A program made the position numbers and the translations under genes. Under the pieces are notes generated by a model. That model had not been told where the DNA came from and searched no databases. It worked only from the letters and a program-made list of their open reading frames with translations. This document shows positions 35,967 to 45,778 of a stretch of 59,188 nucleotides of DNA, in pieces. Source of the stretch: an uncultured SAR86 cluster bacterium (GTDB lineage Bacteria > Pseudomonadota > Gammaproteobacteria > Magnimaribacterales > D2472); the NCBI GenBank assembly GCA_902559345.1, contig CACEHH010000007.1, forward strand, positions 1 to 59,188, read 5' to 3'. Position 1 is the stretch's first letter, and each line of letters begins with the position of its first letter.

Positions 35967-36386
35967 ATGAAAAATAAATTTATATTAAGTATAGGATTAT
36001 TATTAATAACATTGAGTTTTAATATTAATGCGGATGACCATAAAAATGATACAAATTCATTTCCAGGTCTAGTTTCTACAGAAGTATTTGAACTTGGAAA
36101 TGGTATGGATATGCATGTAGAACGAAGAAAAACATGTAATCAAGGTACAGTTGCTAAACATTTTCATCCAGCAGCTGGAACTCTTGTATATGTCTTAGAT
36201 GGAAAATCTCAATCTAAGTCTTCTGGAAAATGGAAAACATATAGTAATGGAGATTATTGGTTTGAAAGATCTGATTGGGTTCATGGAGGTGAAACTGATG
36301 CTCCAGACTTAGGAGATGTTTGTTCAGATATTTTAGTTATAAGAGTATCTGAAAGCGGTAAAGAACATACTGTATTTATTAAATAA
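35967..36386 (+). CDS. Exported cupin-domain protein
   Basis: 139-residue protein with a cleavable signal peptide (hydrophobic 5-20, then N-I-N-A-D-D). The mature part is a single cupin: A-K-H-F-H-P-A-A-G-T-L-V-Y-V-L-D-G at 65-81 provides two metal-ligand His and a beta-strand, and W-V-H-G-G-E later supplies the third His. Substrate and activity are unknown; periplasmic location is inferred from the signal. It has its own Shine-Dalgarno and a strong terminator, so it is a single-gene transcript and may be well expressed. Confidence 0.8.
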   Translation: MKNKFILSIGLLLITLSFNINADDHKNDTNSFPGLVSTEVFELGNGMDMHVERRKTCNQGTVAKHFHPAAGTLVYVLDGKSQSKSSGKWKTYSNGDYWFERSDWVHGGETDAPDLGDVCSDILVIRVSESGKEHTVFIK

Positions 36387-36401
36387 ATATATGTGACTTA
36401 T

Positions 36402-36428
36402 AAAACCCATCATCATGATGGGTTTTTT
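36402..36428 (+). terminator. Rho-independent terminator after the cupin gene
   Basis: Eleven-base perfect stem (36402-36412 with 416-426), three-base loop, with a GGG/CCC core, merging into a T-run to 36428. It lies 16 bp after the cupin stop and is the best terminator in the window. Confidence 0.88.
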
Positions 36429-36500
36429 ATTTAAAATATTTAATTTTGGTTTATTAGAAAATATTTTTATGATGAAAATATATTATATATAATTAAATTT

Positions 36501-38006
36501 ATGAAACTTTTATTTATTTTATTTTTAATAACTACATTTATATCATCAAATATCATTATTGCTGATGAAGATTCGGAAAACTGCAGTATAAAAAACGTAC
36601 CAACTGAAGAAAGGGTTTTTTCTAATAACTTTTCTGGTGTTTTTAATGGAAAAAGACTTGAATATACTGCAAGTCTTAAAGAAAAAATTCTTTATGAGAA
36701 AGACAATCCAAGTGAACCAATGGCATCTTTTTTTTATACAGAGTATATAGTTGATTCTGATAAAAATAGACCAGTAATATTTAGTTTTAATGGCGGACCT
36801 GGTTCGGCATCATTATGGCTTCATATGGGTGTTTTAGGACCAAAAGTTATTAAGGTACCCAGTGATGCATCAGATGATGGATCTGCTCCATATAAAATCG
36901 TAGATAATAAACTATCTCCACTAAGTGATGCAGATCTTGTTTTTATTGATCCAATAGGTACTGGTTATAGTAGGGCGATTGGATGTCATGATTCAGAAGA
37001 ATTCTGGGGAGTAAGTGAAGATCCTAAAATCATTGCTGAGTTTATAAGAAGATGGATTAATGATAATAAACGTTGGAATTCACCAAGATATATACTAGGA
37101 GAGAGTTATGGTGGCATTAGAGGTCCATTATTAGTATCAGAATTAAGATCAGGGTCTATTACTCCAATCGAAGTAAATGGGTTATTAATGGTTGCTCCAG
37201 CATCTGATTATCAGTATTTAGTTTTTCATCCTGGCAACAATAGCCCGCATTATGGATTCTTACCCTCATATGCAGCAACAGCTTATTACCATGGAAAAAT
37301 TGAAACTGATAAATCACTTCAAGAGTTTTATGAAGATTCAAAAAAGTTTAGTTTAGAGGTGTATGGACCAGCTTTATTAAAAGGAACAAGAATATCGGAA
37401 GATGAAAAGAACTCTGTTATGAAACAATATTCTGAATTTACAGGTTTAAGCCTAAGATTTGTAGAAGATTTTGATATGAGGGTTGATCCTTCAAGTTTTA
37501 GAAAAGAGTTATTAAGAGATGAAGGTTATTCAGTAGGCAGATTAGATTCAAGATATAAAAATTCTGACTATATGGCAGGTGGTCAATATCCTGATACTGA
37601 TGTATCAAGTGAAGGTTTTATGTCAGCTTATGTTTCAGCTATTCACACATGGTTTAGTGAAATTGGTGTTGAAATGAAAATGTTATACCAAAGTGGTGAT
37701 TATGATGTTTATTCAAGTTGGAAACATCCTCAAGAATGGAAAGGTAATGATTTTGGATATGTAAATACAGTCCCAGATATTGCTAGAGCTCAAAGATATA
37801 ATAAAGATTTTAAAGTTTATGTTTCATGTGGGCTCTATGATTTAGCAACTCCTTGTTTTACGGCTGAAAACTTTATGTATGACAACACAGTTGATATGAG
37901 TAGGGTGGTTTTTTCAGAGTTTGAAGCAGGTCATATGATGTATAACCATCAACCATCCTTTGATAGATTTCTTGAAGAAATTAGGAAATTCATAATTGAT
38001 AACTAA
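36501..38006 (+). CDS. Exported S10-family serine carboxypeptidase
   Basis: 501-residue secreted peptidase S10. A signal peptide covers about residues 1-21. The oxyanion motif N-G-G-P-G-S is at 97-102; the triad is Ser202 in G-E-S-Y-G-G, Asp447 in L-Y-D-L-A-T-P, and His478 in A-G-H-M-M-Y. S10 enzymes remove C-terminal residues from peptides at acidic pH. It is probably periplasmic. The last 11 bp overlap the first duplicated lipoprotein gene, and a copy of its final codons survives downstream at 38861-38893, marking a tandem duplication. Confidence 0.92.
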   Translation: MKLLFILFLITTFISSNIIIADEDSENCSIKNVPTEERVFSNNFSGVFNGKRLEYTASLKEKILYEKDNPSEPMASFFYTEYIVDSDKNRPVIFSFNGGPGSASLWLHMGVLGPKVIKVPSDASDDGSAPYKIVDNKLSPLSDADLVFIDPIGTGYSRAIGCHDSEEFWGVSEDPKIIAEFIRRWINDNKRWNSPRYILGESYGGIRGPLLVSELRSGSITPIEVNGLLMVAPASDYQYLVFHPGNNSPHYGFLPSYAATAYYHGKIETDKSLQEFYEDSKKFSLEVYGPALLKGTRISEDEKNSVMKQYSEFTGLSLRFVEDFDMRVDPSSFRKELLRDEGYSVGRLDSRYKNSDYMAGGQYPDTDVSSEGFMSAYVSAIHTWFSEIGVEMKMLYQSGDYDVYSSWKHPQEWKGNDFGYVNTVPDIARAQRYNKDFKVYVSCGLYDLATPCFTAENFMYDNTVDMSRVVFSEFEAGHMMYNHQPSFDRFLEEIRKFIIDN

Positions 38007-38170
38007 AGATAAAATTATAAAAAATCTATTTGCTATATTAATTCTTATGGTAATAACTAGTTGTGGCCCCTCAGAAAACGATCTAAAAGAATTAGATAAA
38101 TATAACAATGCTGTAATAAGTTACTTGGATAAATATAAACCAGAACTATATATAAGCGAAATTAATTACG
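37974..38170 (+). repeat. Direct repeat copy 1 (197 bp)
   Basis: This block recurs at 38861-39057 with one mismatch (A at 37987, G at 38874). It begins inside the S10 gene, 33 bases before the end of its stop codon, and covers the Shine-Dalgarno, TTG start, signal peptide and first mature residues of the lipoprotein gene. Beyond it the copies diverge sharply. Confidence 0.95.
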
Positions 38171-38850
38171 ACCTGTGTGGTCGAAACTACGACAGCTGTA
38201 ATCAAGGCGAGTTATATTACATTGGAATTATGCACTCAGAAACTAAATCACTTGTTGGTTTTGAAAGAATAATTATAATTGAATTTGAGAATCTTCCAGG
38301 CATAACTCTTCAATCAAGACCTTCATATAGTGCGCGTAATAGATGGGGTGATGGTGCTCCTTTTTCCTTTAATAGGCGATCACCTGAAGATATATATAAA
38401 GATTTAAAATATCGTGTGGACAACGATATTGACCGTTTAAGTGGTTCGCCTGCTTATGAGGATTATAATTCTAGGGTATTACAAACAGATATAAGTCTTC
38501 CTTCTAGAGGGGATTATCAGCTTGATAGAACCGATTTAGATAAAATTATAGATTTGCACCACGAGGGTAATTTAAAAATAAAAAAAATTACACTTCAACT
38601 AACAGGTAATGCCTCTTTTGACTTGCTTGATACTAATATTCCACCATCTGAAAGGAGAAAATTAAATCCTACTTATTATGAAACAAATTTACCTTTAACT
38701 TTTTCTGAAAAATATGAATGGATCTTATATCCTAGCCCTCATTGTTCGAGGCTTGATGAAATACATAAATATATTATGAAGAATGCAAATGCCAGAGGCC
38801 TCTACTACAAGTTTGATCATTTTTATCCATCTCCTGGATGTAATAAATGA
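37996..38850 (+). CDS. Unknown lipoprotein, tandem copy A
   Basis: 284-residue predicted lipoprotein starting at TTG 37996, with AGGAA eight bases upstream at 37983-37987. The signal peptide ends V-I-T-S-C-G (lipobox Cys at residue 23). I do not recognise the domain. The mature part has a Cys-containing loop (C-G-R-N-Y-D-S-C), L-V-G-F-E-R, a charged D-L-D-K-I-I-D-L segment, and a conserved C-terminal E-K-Y-E-W-I-L-Y-P-S-P-H-C-S-R. The start lies within the end of the S10 gene, so translation may be coupled to that peptidase. It is the paralogue of the next gene. Confidence 0.82.
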   Translation: MITKDKIIKNLFAILILMVITSCGPSENDLKELDKYNNAVISYLDKYKPELYISEINYDLCGRNYDSCNQGELYYIGIMHSETKSLVGFERIIIIEFENLPGITLQSRPSYSARNRWGDGAPFSFNRRSPEDIYKDLKYRVDNDIDRLSGSPAYEDYNSRVLQTDISLPSRGDYQLDRTDLDKIIDLHHEGNLKIKKITLQLTGNASFDLLDTNIPPSERRKLNPTYYETNLPLTFSEKYEWILYPSPHCSRLDEIHKYIMKNANARGLYYKFDHFYPSPGCNK

Positions 38851-38860
38851 TTGATATTAA

Positions 38861-39057
38861 GAAGAAATTAGGAGATTCATAATTGATAACTAAAGATAAA
38901 ATTATAAAAAATCTATTTGCTATATTAATTCTTATGGTAATAACTAGTTGTGGCCCCTCAGAAAACGATCTAAAAGAATTAGATAAATATAACAATGCTG
39001 TAATAAGTTACTTGGATAAATATAAACCAGAACTATATATAAGCGAAATTAATTACG
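38861..39057 (+). repeat. Direct repeat copy 2 (197 bp) with remnant of the S10 gene end
   Basis: Second copy of the block at 37974-38170. In the S10 frame, 38861-38893 still reads E-E-I-R-R-F-I-I-D-N-stop, matching the C-terminus of the peptidase with one K-to-R change. The single mismatch turns AGGAA into AGGAG, a stronger Shine-Dalgarno for copy B. Confidence 0.95.
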
Positions 39058-39800
39058 GTCTCTGTGATGGAGGCTACGAAGAATCAATTCATGGTCGTAT
39101 CAACTGTAATTCAGGCGAGTTATCTACTATTATAATTAAACACTTAGAAAGTAAATCACTTGTTGGTTTTGAAAGAATACTTTTAATCGAATTTGAGAAT
39201 CTCCCAGGCATAATTATTCAATCAAAACCTTTTTATAGTAATAAATATTATGCATGGGGTGAACATTCACCTGAAGATATTTATGAACATTTTAAATATT
39301 ATGTGGACAACGATCTTGAGCTATTAAGTGGTTGGTACAATTATATAGGCGGTTTTAAGAAATATAATTCTACGATCATAACTGAAGTTATAAGACTTAC
39401 TTCTGAGGGATGGGATTATGAGCTTGATAGAAACGATTTAGATAAAATTATAGATTTGCACTACGAGGGTAATTTAAAAATTAAAAAAATTAGACTTCAA
39501 CTAACAGGCAATATCAACTTTGACAATCTTGATATTAATATTCCACCACCTGAAAGGAGAAAATTAAATCCTAGTTATTATGATACAAATTTTCCTTTAA
39601 CTTTTTCTGAAAAATATGAATGGATTTTATATCCTAATCCTCATTGTTCGAGGCTTGATGAAATACATAAATATATTAAGAGAAATGCAGATGCCTGTTA
39701 CTATCGCAATACCTGCTCACAGGGCCTCTACATGTTTGATTATTTATATCCAACACCAACAAGAGTTAACACTAATCCTTTACCACCTGGTTGTAAGTAA
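38883..39800 (+). CDS. Unknown lipoprotein, tandem copy B
   Basis: 305-residue lipoprotein starting at TTG 38883 with AGGAG at 38870-38874. Its first 58 residues are identical to copy A, including the V-I-T-S-C lipobox; the rest is related but diverged, with a longer variable middle and an added C-terminal tail with extra cysteines (C-Y-Y-R-N-T-C and the final P-G-C-K). The shared C-terminal core is E-K-Y-E-W-I-L-Y-P-N-P-H-C-S-R. It ends 14 bp before the convergent M14 peptidase gene. Function is unknown; the pair may be partners or inhibitors of the S10 enzyme (inference). Confidence 0.82.
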   Translation: MITKDKIIKNLFAILILMVITSCGPSENDLKELDKYNNAVISYLDKYKPELYISEINYGLCDGGYEESIHGRINCNSGELSTIIIKHLESKSLVGFERILLIEFENLPGIIIQSKPFYSNKYYAWGEHSPEDIYEHFKYYVDNDLELLSGWYNYIGGFKKYNSTIITEVIRLTSEGWDYELDRNDLDKIIDLHYEGNLKIKKIRLQLTGNINFDNLDINIPPPERRKLNPSYYDTNFPLTFSEKYEWILYPNPHCSRLDEIHKYIKRNADACYYRNTCSQGLYMFDYLYPTPTRVNTNPLPPGCK

Positions 39801-39814
39801 TTAGATGTACAAAA

Positions 39815-42670
39815 TCAAGGATTAATCTTTGATCTTGTCCCTAATCCTGGGCCATAAACAATAGCATTTAACCATAATCTATTAGTTCCAAGTGTTGATC
39901 CTCTAAAATTAGGCTCACCTGAAAATAATATGACCTGACCATCTCCAATTCTTTCTCTCGTTAAATAAGCAGAATTAGCGATCCTTTGGGAAGCCTCCGG
40001 CCAGACTAATCCACTCATTCTTACATTAAGATCATTGCCTGCAGGTAAGCTAGACCAATTTATAACTCTTGGTTCTTCAATTTCATTATTAGGAATCATT
40101 TGACCTATTCTTACAGGTGCATCAACATAACTTCTTGCCATAAGGATAGGGAGGTTGCTATATAAAACAGGTATAGTATTTGGTGTCCCAAATGTTAACC
40201 AATGCTCATTGTCAATTCTTCCTGCAACTATTGATCCTGATGGCATAAAAATTGATTGCCATTTATCTCTAGATTTAAGCTCATTTTCAGATAAAGTGTC
40301 TTGTAACTGTTCCCAAGGATAAGATATATCAAAATCTACAATATTGTTATTTGTTTTATCTTTATCAACATTTTCATATTGAGAGTATATTTCTCTCAAT
40401 AAATCAAAATTATACTTTTCACTTTCATCAAAAGTATTTTGAAGCTGTTTAACGCTACCTATTCCATATTCTGAAGTTAAAAATCTAGTACTTCTATTAT
40501 GAGCAATTAGTGTTCCGCCTTGTGAGACCCATTCAAAAAGTGTATCTACTGTGTAATCATCTATCGCTCGACCGCTAGGTATGATAATGGTGTTATATCT
40601 TCTTAAATCACCATAACTAGCTAAAGATGCATTTATCATGCTATGTCTTATTCCTAAATGATGATCCAACGACCACCAACTTACTCCAACATCGTATGAA
40701 TTAAACCCTTCATGACTTAACATGGCAATCTGAGGTTTTTCTAACAATCTAAAATGTCTACCACCCCAATCAGGAAGTTCTTCTTGACCAAATCCTGACT
40801 CAATCGACACTACAGATATATTTAATTCATCTGAAACTGTTTTTACTAAATTTTGTAAATTTGTAATATCTGGATTATCCATTTTAAGAACAGCAACACT
40901 ACCTCTAGGTAATATATGATCAGATAGGGTGGATTCTTTATCAATTATTCTTACTTCTATATTTTGTTCCATTAAACGAGCTGCAAAAGCTACTGAATTA
41001 TCATCCGTTCCATTAGTAGCCCAAATAACAGCATCTTTAGTAATTTCACTAGTAACTGCTGATGGCTTCCATGTCTCTAGGTTTGAATCTACATGCTTAT
41101 CAACTGTAACTGCATCTAAACCATACATCATAGTAAAGTTAAAAGCTGTCGTATCGTACATTACCGATGAACCACTTTTTAAACTTTTTTGTCTTTCTTC
41201 AACTAAAACATCCGTATCTATATCAGCATCAAACTCTAATATTGCTGCAATGAGTGGAGCCTCTGGTTGTCTATTTGGAATAATCATACTTCCAGCAGGA
41301 ATTGTATAATTTGTAACGAGCTGACCAGATTGTAAAGTTACATTCTCTATTTTAATATCTTTAGTATTTTGAAAAAGCTCTATATCTTGAGCTTTTAATT
41401 TATCTGCTAAAGTATTTAATCTAGTATTATTATCTGTTGGTAAAACTACAAAGGTTTGATTGGCATATTCACTATCTTTTGAGACATTGTATTTTCTTCC
41501 ATCCCAATAGTCTTTATACATTTCTTTTGAATTTTTAAGTAATGTTTCAAGATTAACTAATGTACTAATATATTGATGATGAACTGATTCTTTATATGAT
41601 TGAATAGTACCTTCTGGTCTTCTAACACCGTCTTCAGCCATTCTAGATTGTTCATAGAGTATTCCTAAAGTACCTCTAAATTGTACATAAAAAGAATAAC
41701 CAGGGTAGAGGTCTTCATGCCATTCACCAGTATAAAAACGCCAATTTCTTTCATCAAAAGCATTGCCTTGATCTTGAGCAAATACATTACCCCATTTAAT
41801 TAAATCGGTATCAATATTTTTATTAATAGGTTCTCTTGGGGGGCCTGTCATAAACGTATCTTGGGGCCCCATCTCATGTCCATCAACAAGTATTTGAGGT
41901 CTCCATTCATTGATTAACTTTACTCTTCCTTTAGTTTCAGGTTGAGTTAGATAAAACCAATCTCTATTTAAATCAAAATAATAATGATTAGTCCTACCGT
42001 ATGGCCAGTCTCCAGTATGAAGCAAGGATTGGTCATCATAATTTGGAGCTGTACCTCTATATTGTTCAAGAGATTTTACAAATCTTGCACGTCCATCAGG
42101 ATTCATTAGCGGATCTACAATAATTACCATATTGTCTAACATATTTAAAACATCATCATCTATGCTTGCAATTAAATGGTAAATAGCTGCCAAAGCTCCA
42201 TCAGCTCCAGATGTTTCATTGCCATGAATTGAATATGCCATCCAAGCTACTGCTGGTAAGTTATCAATAATTGACCTAGCTTTTCTATCATTTGTAGTTC
42301 TGGCATCTGATAGTGCAGACAAGTTATTTTTAATTTCGTCTAAATTATTAATATTTTCAGGTGAGGATATAAATACTGCATGAAGCGGTCTATTTTCATG
42401 AGTTCTTGCATATTCAACAACTTTAATCCTCTCTGATTGAGTTGACCATGTCTTAAGCGCATTTGTTATTTGCCAGGGTGCAGCAACTCGTTCTCCAATA
42501 CCAAATCCTAAAAACTCATCAGGATGCGTTATATCATCCATATAAGTTCCATCTAAAATAGGTGTTTGATACAAATCTTTCGAATAAGACGTTGGATTCA
42601 TCAAATCATATGAAAGAATGGTATTGGTAGAAGATATTATAAAGAGGAGTGTAATTAATTTAGTTTTCAT
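39815..42670 (-). CDS. Exported M14-family metallo-carboxypeptidase
   Basis: 951-residue secreted zinc carboxypeptidase. Signal peptide about 1-20. The zinc motif H-G-N-E (His149, Glu152) lies in Y-S-I-H-G-N-E-T-S-G, the substrate-binding M-N-P-D-G-R-A-R is at 189-196, and the third zinc ligand is probably His265 in V-D-G-H-E-M-G-P. A long C-terminal region beyond about 450 holds further beta-rich and alpha/beta segments, as in the large bacterial M14 proteins. It would trim peptides outside the inner membrane. It is a single gene, divergent from the ABM gene. Confidence 0.88.
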   Translation of the reverse strand: MKTKLITLLFIISSTNTILSYDLMNPTSYSKDLYQTPILDGTYMDDITHPDEFLGFGIGERVAAPWQITNALKTWSTQSERIKVVEYARTHENRPLHAVFISSPENINNLDEIKNNLSALSDARTTNDRKARSIIDNLPAVAWMAYSIHGNETSGADGALAAIYHLIASIDDDVLNMLDNMVIIVDPLMNPDGRARFVKSLEQYRGTAPNYDDQSLLHTGDWPYGRTNHYYFDLNRDWFYLTQPETKGRVKLINEWRPQILVDGHEMGPQDTFMTGPPREPINKNIDTDLIKWGNVFAQDQGNAFDERNWRFYTGEWHEDLYPGYSFYVQFRGTLGILYEQSRMAEDGVRRPEGTIQSYKESVHHQYISTLVNLETLLKNSKEMYKDYWDGRKYNVSKDSEYANQTFVVLPTDNNTRLNTLADKLKAQDIELFQNTKDIKIENVTLQSGQLVTNYTIPAGSMIIPNRQPEAPLIAAILEFDADIDTDVLVEERQKSLKSGSSVMYDTTAFNFTMMYGLDAVTVDKHVDSNLETWKPSAVTSEITKDAVIWATNGTDDNSVAFAARLMEQNIEVRIIDKESTLSDHILPRGSVAVLKMDNPDITNLQNLVKTVSDELNISVVSIESGFGQEELPDWGGRHFRLLEKPQIAMLSHEGFNSYDVGVSWWSLDHHLGIRHSMINASLASYGDLRRYNTIIIPSGRAIDDYTVDTLFEWVSQGGTLIAHNRSTRFLTSEYGIGSVKQLQNTFDESEKYNFDLLREIYSQYENVDKDKTNNNIVDFDISYPWEQLQDTLSENELKSRDKWQSIFMPSGSIVAGRIDNEHWLTFGTPNTIPVLYSNLPILMARSYVDAPVRIGQMIPNNEIEEPRVINWSSLPAGNDLNVRMSGLVWPEASQRIANSAYLTRERIGDGQVILFSGEPNFRGSTLGTNRLWLNAIVYGPGLGTRSKINP

Positions 42671-42756
42671 AAGTTTATAGTAATTGAAATAATAAAAATC
42701 TGCATTAAATTTTATAAATGATGAGTATAAGTTTATTATTATATTTGTTTATAAAT

Positions 42757-42766
42757 AGGAGTAAGC
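42757..42766 (+). promoter_or_regulatory. Shine-Dalgarno of the ABM gene
   Basis: AGGAG at 42757-42761, five bases before the ATG at 42767. The rest of the 96-bp spacer from the M14 start is AT-rich without a clear operator. Confidence 0.6.
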
Positions 42767-43072
42767 ATGAAAAATTTAGTAATTGTATCTTTTCCAGCAA
42801 AAGAGGGGATGTTAGATGATCTTAAAGATACTCTAAAGGTTGCTTTACCAGATACAAGATCATTTGATGGATGTATATCAGTTGATACATACATAGAAGA
42901 TTCTACCAACACAGTTCATCTCATTGAGGATTGGGAATCATTAGATCATCAATCAAAATACCTCAATTGGAGGATTGAAACTGGTCTTTTAGAAGTATTA
43001 GAGCCATTATTAGAAGGAGGGGCAGCAGGCCTTAAGGCTATAATATGCGGTCCTAAACACGACACTATTTAA
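42767..43072 (+). CDS. ABM-domain (YgiN-like) monooxygenase
   Basis: 101-residue antibiotic-biosynthesis-monooxygenase-fold protein (ferredoxin-like, dimeric). Typical features are K-E-G-M-L-D-D-L-K-D-T-L at 12-23, the P-D-T-R-S-F-D-G-C segment, and L-I-E-D-W-E-S-L-D-H-Q-S-K-Y near 52-65. Members act as quinol monooxygenases or on polyketides; the substrate is unknown. It is a single gene with its own ribosome site, converging on the M64 gene. Confidence 0.85.
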   Translation: MKNLVIVSFPAKEGMLDDLKDTLKVALPDTRSFDGCISVDTYIEDSTNTVHLIEDWESLDHQSKYLNWRIETGLLEVLEPLLEGGAAGLKAIICGPKHDTI

Positions 43073-43095
43073 TATCATAATAATATACTAGTTCG

Positions 43096-43111
43096 CATAA
43101 TATATATTATG
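43096..43111. other. 16-bp perfect palindrome in a convergent spacer
   Basis: A perfect AT-rich palindrome with one C/G pair at its ends, midway in the 54-bp gap between the ABM (+) and M64 (-) gene ends. It could be a weak bidirectional terminator; no T-run follows. Confidence 0.2.
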
Positions 43112-43126
43112 TTAAATAATATAAGA

Positions 43127-45778
43127 TTACTTTAGTTTAGTAATTGATATAGCTTCAAATGTATTATTAATTGAACGTTTGCTATAAGTAATAAAATATG
43201 GATTTAATTCTTGTGGATAAGCTATTTTGTAACCTTTTATTGGTATATCAATATTAAAAATATTAGCATCCTCATAACCTATATGCTGTATTCTTGCTTC
43301 AAATGGATTTCCAAGACCTAAGTTATATATAGGATTCATATCTTTATCATGGAATGTAATCATATATTTGTCCTTAAAGTTAACTCTATTATTTTTTATA
43401 TATTCTTTTTTTACTTCTTTAATTTTAATATTTTTAACATCTATAGCGTCATTAGATAGATTTAAACTAATAATTTTTTCTATAGCTCCAGCTTGTGGTT
43501 TGATGTCAAAAAGGTTTTTTTGTTTATTATTATTTGAAAATGATCCGCTTACAGATGCTGGTTCATAATTTTTCCAATTAATCTTGTAACCGTAACCTAA
43601 AGCACAACATTGTTCTGCATATAAATAATTATCAATATTAGACAAATCTACTGTGTCATCAGTATCTTTAACTACAGAGTCATGTGGAGGGTTTCTGTGC
43701 CAATACCATGTTCCAACATATGGATAATTTGGATTATTATTTGGGTTTGTATTTGGGTCTGGATCGTAATAAGACCACATATTAAATATACCTTCATATA
43801 AATCTCTTGGATTTAATGGATCATTTGGCGCAATTAAATTACCTGATAAATCATGTACCTGCCATGAATATGTAGTCATTGCATTATCAGCTGGTCTATT
43901 AAAGGTTACTTCTAATTGATTTTCCAGATCTGTTTGTTCAATTCCATCTATATACCATGATAATTTAAGTTTATTGGTATCAAATATCCCATTTACATCA
44001 AATGTTATATATTCTCCCAATGATTCAGGGTTATTTATATCAACATCATCAGTAATATCAGATTTAATAATAAAATCATCAAAACCATTAAATTGATTTG
44101 TAATTGAACCAATGGCAAAACCTTCAACATTTATTTTTCCGTAATCAAGAAAACAGCACCACATAACACTTATCCACTTAGGTCTATATGTGTCTACCTC
44201 ATCATAATAAGTTCCTTGGAATAACCCTATTTTACCCCTACAACTATCATCATCATTTATACCTGGGAAATTTGGATCATAGTCTGGATGATCTTCATCA
44301 TATGTATTCATATAACATTCACAATCCTCATATTCAAAGTCATCGCGATAATAAATACTACCATCAGCATAGTTATAGCAAACGTCATAATCAACACCCG
44401 GTACATTTGCCATATCTTCAATAAAATGTTTCCACTTAACTACTGATGGATCTGAAACTGCAGTTGTGTTTACACTGAATTCGGCATACCACGTTGGAAA
44501 CGAGCGTTCGCCACGAGAATCATATTCATCACCCATAAATCCATGAGAGTGGCCTAATTCATGTTGAACAATTTCAGCAGATCTTGATGAAATAGGTTGT
44601 ATATTAACTGCTCCTTGAGCAACACCTCTTCCAGATAATGTTGTTAAAAAAGAAACCGTATCCCAGTCCCCTACTACATCACCAATTTTAGATCTGTCTA
44701 CATTTCCAATACAATATATCCTGGCATCCCATGAAGCGTAACAACCTGTTTCAATGTTAAAAATGGATGCACCAGTTATATCTACTTCTTCAAGGACAAG
44801 AACATTAAAATAATCATCAAATACCTCACTGGCATCTGAGTTTTTTAAATTATTTACAGACTCAAGAAGTCTTAAATGAAATTCATCTCTTTGATCTATA
44901 CCATTTATTTGATCGCCAATAAAAATATAATTAGTTCTGGCAGTTGTAGTTGGATTTCCAATTAAGTAGTAAAGATATTGTTGACTTGTTTCACAATTGT
45001 TACCATCATCATCACAGTTATAGTTGACAGATCTTATATCTTTATTTGATATATAGTAGCCTTCTATTTCTCCTTCACATGTTGAATCTTCCAAATCATT
45101 TGCACATAGAGACATTGAAAATAATCCAGCCTCTTGTACAGCATCTAAATTAAATATTAGACTTTGATTTTCAATAACTACATCATTTTCTGTTGTTTGA
45201 GTTATATCTAAAGTTGCACTAACAGTCTCGTTTTGCAGCTGTCCATAAAAAGATAGTTCACTTATATCATTATCAACATCTGTAATTTCAACACTAACTG
45301 TAAGGGTTTCATCAAATAAAAGACTTAAATCTGTATAGACACCCAAATCATCATTTATTTGAAGTACTGGGGGGTCATTTACTGGCCTTATAGTTATTGA
45401 AATAGGTAATGATCTTATTAATGTTTCACCAGTTAAGACATTATTATCATCAACTCGTGATGCAGTGATTCTTATTGAAAAATTATCTATACCAAAATAA
45501 TCTTGGTTAGGTTGATAAGTATAAGACCCTGAGGTAGTTAAGTTAGATTCTCCATTAGTTGTTGAATTTATAATTTCATAAGTAATTTGTGATTTATAGT
45601 TTGTTGAGGCAATAAAAGTTGAAGTATGAGTATTATCTTCATCAATAGTTATTAATGAGTTAGTAGGTAATGTTAGAGAAAATGGCGGAGAACCCCCTCC
45701 CCCGCATGCACTTAAAAATAAAATAACAGAAAGAATATAAGTAGATTTTTTTGTCAACATAGAATTTATTATATACAT
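43127..45778 (-). CDS. M64-like metallopeptidase lipoprotein with N-terminal cadherin/Ig-like repeats
   Basis: 883-residue exported lipoprotein. The lipobox is L-S-A-C (Cys25 from this start, Cys19 if translation begins at the internal ATG at 45760, equally plausible). A Gly run follows, then Ig/cadherin-like repeats (about 45-240) with N-D-P-P-V-L. The peptidase site [14 protein letters not shown] at 406-419 matches the M64 HExxHxxxxxxDEY pattern (His406, Glu407, His410, Asp417). After it come a Cys/Asp-rich insert (about 465-520) and C-terminal beta domains. M64 includes IgA-cleaving and other secreted peptidases. It is a single gene, divergent from infA. Confidence 0.85.

Follow-up and report, generated by a model that had tools for sequence, protein, structure and literature searches.

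A tandem lipoprotein gene pair in a SAR86 bacterium with a near-identical 5′ block and diverged bodies

In an uncultured SAR86 cluster bacterium, two adjacent lipoprotein genes, here called A and B, share a 197-nt block at their 5′ ends that is identical save for one base, and they differ at synonymous and nonsynonymous sites beyond it. The window, meaning the whole stretch of 59,188 nt that was analysed, contains both genes between two convergent peptidase genes, and the features concerned are given in Table 1. On balance, the history we favour is one in which an orphan gene was tandemly duplicated in a changeable slot, the two bodies diverged, and a later exchange made the 5′ block identical again. 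A and B constitute a new orphan family; the process, in which tandem paralogues recombine through blocks of homology, is already known, and the locus is a fairly ordinary, tidy case of tandem bacterial gene evolution. It would offer a small, clear case in which recombination reset one part of a duplicated gene, here in the streamlined SAR86 lineage, and it adds a fast-evolving lipoprotein pair for which no relatives were found, together with a gene slot that turns over between close species.

Table 1. Features of the S10–M14 region, with positions in the window
Feature	Coordinates	Strand	Basis
Serine carboxypeptidase, family S10, signal-like N-terminus (by eye)	36501..38006	+	Pfam PF00450, E 1.5e-16
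197-nt block, copy 1 (S10 codons 492-501 and stop, then start, signal peptide and lipobox, to codon 58 of lipoprotein A)	37974..38170	+	One mismatch to copy 2
Lipoprotein A (284 aa), whose TTG start overlaps the S10 stop; by eye, a signal peptide and the lipobox ITSC with Cys23	37996..38850	+	ORF; no Pfam/NCBIfam family up to E 1
Diverged body of A	38171..38847	+	217 aligned codons, 81% identical to B at the nt level; dS 0.25, dN 0.21
197-nt block, copy 2	38861..39057	+	Aligned with copy 1
S10 C-terminal remnant (codons 492-501) and stop, away from its own gene; carries the AGGAG site ahead of B	38861..38893	+	Sequence comparison
Lipoprotein B (305 aa), also with a TTG start; five cysteines (23, 61, 75, 255, 304) align with those of A and two (272, 278) are extra	38883..39800	+	ORF, cysteine positions, alignment
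Diverged body of B	39058..39797	+	Same comparison as body of A
Zinc carboxypeptidase, family M14, convergent; bounds the variable slot on the right	39815..42670	-	Pfam PF00246, E 8.6e-16

A preliminary description of this DNA had reported a 197-bp match with one mismatch, which direct alignment bears out: at an offset of 887, the two copies differ solely at 37987/38874, with A in the S10 gene and G ahead of copy B, and mismatches restart at 38171, just past the right end of the block. The block does start inside the S10 gene, as described, and B is preceded by a vestigial S10 C-terminus of ten codons with its stop, a remnant that is noncoding there and 21/22 identical as far as the start codon. 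The single difference turns AGGAA into AGGAG 8 nt 5′ of the TTG, the base change that had been noted; since no upstream gene overlaps the start of B, it is plausible that this one base strengthens the ribosome site of that gene. To the left of the block, the next 13 nt are 8/13 alike (p 0.015), with p values of 0.05–0.12 over 15–30 nt. As the left end of the block also coincides with the point where clear S10 homology stops, it does not fix the original junction. In 387,245 bases, comprising the window and 24 SAR86 stretches, each scanned by itself with the low-complexity filter on, this was the sole direct repeat of at least 60 nt whose two copies begin within 6 kb of each other.

The translated N-terminus, MITKDKIIKNLFAILILMVITSC in both copies, displays by eye the positive charge, the hydrophobic stretch and the lipobox ending in Cys that are expected of a lipoprotein. 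The start of A overlaps the 3′ end of S10 by 11 nt, and a gap of 32 nt separates A from B. Immediately 5′ of the TTG, an in-frame TAA occurs in both genes, so that no longer frame is possible. Both look maintained, with no stop in either frame where about six would be expected under neutral drift (P 0.0025). The eight gaps of the A/B alignment are all whole codons; given that this alignment was built on proteins, the open frames alone count as independent evidence. A scan of 36300–40000 detected 13 promoter-like sites, rarer than in shuffled sequences (22.4), one of them at each lipoprotein start (37996 and 38883; 9/12 matches), and three terminator-like sites where 1.3 were expected, namely a clear hairpin upstream of S10 (36402–36426) and two sites within A. 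The same scan found neither kind of site in the 32-nt gap.

A codon alignment of A and B (275 aligned pairs) shows a step at the right end of the block. Codons 1–58 contain no synonymous and no nonsynonymous differences over 33.7 synonymous sites, whereas dS is 0.249 and dN 0.210 from codon 59 to the end. Past the block dS remains about level and dN does not, with values of 0.280 and 0.328, respectively, in alignment columns 59–175 and of 0.223 and 0.124 from column 176 onward. Synonymous differences number 0 at the 33.7 sites of the block versus 27.5 at the 130 sites beyond (Fisher p 0.0014), a test whose boundaries were picked after seeing the data, a choice for which a scan test allows. When differing codons were shuffled over the 275 aligned codons, a difference-free run of 58 codons was obtained in 0 of 20,000 trials. 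With the synonymous differences alone shuffled, such a run appeared at the start in 10/20,000 (0.0005) and anywhere in 296/20,000, the latter frequency (0.015) making this a test of modest strength.

The divergence beyond the block is uneven. Sliding identity drops right after the block, as had been claimed, but later recovers: from 65% at columns 151–175 it rises to 92–95% at columns 226–275 and then declines to 75%, and a 287-nt stretch near the 3′ end (38507–38793 against 39409–39695) is again 91% identical, so that the strong divergence attributed to the genes applies chiefly to the middle and to the extreme 3′ end. The post-block body changes fast, with a dN/dS of 0.85 (95% 0.57–1.32), compared with 0.041–0.107 for S10 (six comparisons) and M14 (five) against near relatives; G067, whose M14 is more distant, was left out of the M14 comparisons. 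The ratio is 1.13 (0.70–1.95) in the first half of the body and 0.54 (0.28–1.14) in the second. The fast change agrees in part with the earlier proposal of rapid selection on the mature domain; positive selection is possible, with a ratio that is not significantly above 1 and does not prove it. A plain duplication without recombination, in which the leader and signal peptide were held by purifying selection while the mature part diversified or was relaxed, would draw on the obvious functions of the signal peptide and start region and on the uneven dN along the body (0.33, then 0.12). We consider it unlikely, given that the synonymous sites of the block are unchanged too, as measured by the shuffled runs, that the noncoding S10 remnant ahead of B is nearly identical as well, and that the identity stops at codon 58, which lies 35 codons past the lipobox Cys.

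Because the synonymous sites step too, recombination, whether gene conversion or allele exchange, is a better fit than selection acting only on the protein, which supports the partial conversion or recombination put forward in the preliminary description. The ancestral state would have been a lipoprotein gene without known relatives, located in the slot between the two convergent peptidase genes. A tandem duplication, with a unit that began roughly 10 codons before the end of S10 and ran past the end of the gene, would have produced two bodies that drifted apart while only weakly constrained. Subsequently, a homologous exchange, either gene conversion between the copies or recombination with an allele from another cell, would have restored the identity of the S10 tail, the start, the signal peptide and the first 58 codons. 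We infer both the order of these events, duplication before conversion, and the direction of the exchange. Recombination is the best reading with either donor of the 5′ block, the sister copy or another cell, between which one pair does not discriminate. Given the single mismatch inside the block, either some time has passed since the exchange or its tract began at 38875. A third copy of A or B was found neither in the organism's own assembly (two matches; a draft, 71.67% complete) nor in the other collections searched, and no strain of the same species was found among the 107 family genomes, which come from a collection with one genome per species, or among the genome contigs.

A second way of obtaining the pair by recombination is that single-copy A and B came from two strains, or sister species, with a recently shared 5′ part, and that unequal exchange built the order S10–A–[S10 tail]–B–M14, the identity step being already present between the alleles. 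The body dS of 0.25 falls near the bottom of the sister-species range (M14 0.19–0.67, S10 0.38–0.98), and for one relative, G061, the dS of S10 and M14 is strongly unequal (0.98 versus 0.27), itself a hint of regional recombination. This origin nevertheless demands two lineages each carrying an otherwise unseen gene, and relatives with a single-copy A or B were not found in the family, order or class genomes; we regard it as possible, but of clearly lower probability. The dS values to G078 are 0.41 for S10 and 0.19 for M14, and those to G066 are reversed (0.40 and 0.65), as if the two genes had been swapped one by one between SAR86 species.

The pair might also have arisen in the assembly, from a mixture of strains or an amplification chimera. 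Short reads cope poorly with a perfect repeat of 183 nt, the draft assembly consists of 34 contigs at the completeness given above, and many relatives bear AG- or AH- record names, which we take to denote single-cell genomes. An artefact is nonetheless very improbable: the window contains no N, A and B, whose aligned bodies disagree at 123 of 651 bases, must therefore be two real sequences, and the join of the end of A to the S10 tail is unique, a structure that mere collapse of a repeat would not be expected to make.

Searches for homologues returned no credible relatives of A or B in 107 family, 203 order and 369 class genomes, sets that overlap. With B as the query, the family genomes yielded, besides the genome's own proteins, only two matches (E 6.1e-4 and 9.6e-4), both within query residues 6–92 and located in long lipoproteins that by eye resemble enzymes of the metallo-beta-lactamase fold; these were rejected. 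A profile of A and B recovered only the genome's own proteins from the class genomes. In the order genomes (E <= 0.1) it reached eight further genomes at E 0.0016–0.064, six of the matches within profile positions 6–94 and two with internal stops, which were taken as chance or signal-peptide likeness. No relative was found among the 39 stretches that B matched in genome contigs, by a method that reaches close relatives only, in viral contigs (searched with B, with the profile and with a 29-base pattern), in phages searched with B, in plasmids searched with A, or in PDB sequences searched with the profile. Neither Pfam nor NCBIfam contains a family matching A or B up to E 1, and six PHROGs matches of A and B (E 0.003 at best; four within residues 2–89; all of unknown function) were set aside. 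A low-confidence predicted model of B with A as second row reached a pLDDT of 53.6 and a pTM of 0.57, and one of A alone 35.9 and 0.29. Foldseek returned nothing at E <= 0.001, and the best VIA-align Z of 4.9 fell among mixed, unrelated rows, a level that may reflect shared arrangement only; no fold is claimed. Literature searches on SAR86 carboxypeptidases, recombination and tandem duplication, and on lipoprotein gene conversion, conserved signal peptides, Lpl and Mycoplasma, gave nothing on the A/B locus among the matches listed.

Known systems offer parallels in pattern. The variable surface lipoproteins of Mycoplasma (Vpma) have a constant 5′ part, and share with A and B a constant 5′ leader joined to differing mature parts; they differ in that Vpma families switch expression by site-specific recombination; no switching site or recombinase was noticed at the A/B locus. 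Adjacent paralogues with a near-identical block and a variable remainder, the arrangement seen in A and B, also characterize Lpl, TipC and EsaG. NCBIfam and Pfam, which should include Lpl models, gave no match to A or B up to E 1. Neighbouring Lpl lipoproteins of the Staphylococcus aureus vSa-alpha island are described as recombining via a highly similar central block of ~130 nt (PMC9484751). The likeness lies in tandem lipoprotein paralogues with a near-identical nucleotide block, here of 197 nt; the Lpl block is central, with a number of copies that differs from strain to strain, whereas A and B have a 5′ block and are two copies in one genome. The same account describes streptococcal TipC, with a predicted lipoprotein signal peptide and conserved blocks near its start and end, and TsaI, with a single 5′ block over ~75 residues and little evidence of recombination (PMC9484751). 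TipC and the staphylococcal immunity paralogues EsaG and TsaI resemble A and B in being tandem, with conserved blocks and a variable part; recombination there was inferred from many paralogues and strains, and here from one pair in a Gram-negative organism. The single 5′ block of TsaI, so like that of A and B and yet accompanied by little sign of recombination, calls for caution (PMC9484751). The closest known parallels in pattern are the Lpl and TipC paralogues, in which recombination runs through blocks of identity (PMC9484751), and the A/B pair may work in a similar way.

As regards function, we tentatively propose that A and B are exported, lipid-anchored and probably disulfide-bearing, with fast-changing loops whose binding partner would itself be changing (for instance a phage, the toxin of a rival or a secreted peptidase) and a constant 5′ part that would mainly serve export and anchoring. 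The Gly after the Cys, which by the Lol rule presumably directs a lipoprotein to the outer membrane, suggests placement there. A role as orphan immunity genes is possible; the five neighbouring genes that were scanned (S10, M14, cupin-like, ABM and M64) include nothing toxin-like. A far more speculative idea, to which we assign very little probability, is a two-step cassette in which the body joined to the S10 stop is translated and coupled while the one following the second block is kept in reserve, so that recombination of block with block would drop the A body and place B directly after S10; this would permit a one-step swap of a surface lipoprotein in a bacterium whose genome is very small. 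Should strains show exchange of bodies through the block, this would point to a surface protein exposed to shifting biological pressures in one of the abundant bacteria of the ocean.

A linked role with S10 had been suggested from the start of the pair inside that gene, and comparison with relatives speaks against it. S10 was matched in 17 of the 34 genus genomes, or 16 relatives once the genome itself is set aside, none of which has an A/B match, so that adjacency to S10 is not conserved. In 13 of the 16, S10 and M14 are convergent with both ends in view, those excluded being G080 and G079, where M14 is divergent and upstream of S10, and G075, where the stretch fetched has no M14 match. The slot, which spans 38006–39815 in the window, is empty in six of the 13 (G073, G076, G078, G083, G054 and G086; 5–79 nt between matched ends) and occupied by other genes, with five different contents, in the remaining seven: a 169-aa protein without a Pfam match (G066), DUF1993 (G061), an ABM-family gene (G067, G064), the latter plus a 130-aa protein without a Pfam match (G068, G063), or a cupin-like gene (G058). 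ABM and cupin-like genes also adjoin the A/B pair in the window, which indicates that the turnover is partly local shuffling. Apart from the pair, the region is nearly collinear, with 50 of 56 window ORFs matched in G066 and 51 of 56 in G073 (E <= 1e-8; ORFs of at least 90 aa, four overlapping ones of 60 dropped); the unmatched ORFs are A, B and the first four (G066) or three (G073) of the window, which fall outside the stretches fetched. G061 and G076, in which the order is broken outside the core, were not counted. This near-complete collinearity points to a recent acquisition by this species or else to loss from the relatives seen, acquisition being the simpler of the two.

Three predicted peptidases, namely S10, M14 and an M64 peptidase with an Ig-like domain (43127–45778), lie within 36501–45778 together with the small ABM-family gene, and all four genes are matched in 4/4 near relatives compared. 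With three peptidases nearby, a peptidase-related role for A and B stays open, although the turnover of the slot argues against dependence on them. The closest named relatives of S10 are SAR86 cluster records, the weaker ones bearing Marinimicrobia and Bacteroidetes names. Four S10 relatives with 59–79% identity (L053, L054, L057 and L062) stand under Marinimicrobia/Neomarinimicrobiota record names, and these are possibly misnamed SAR86 records or instances of transfer.
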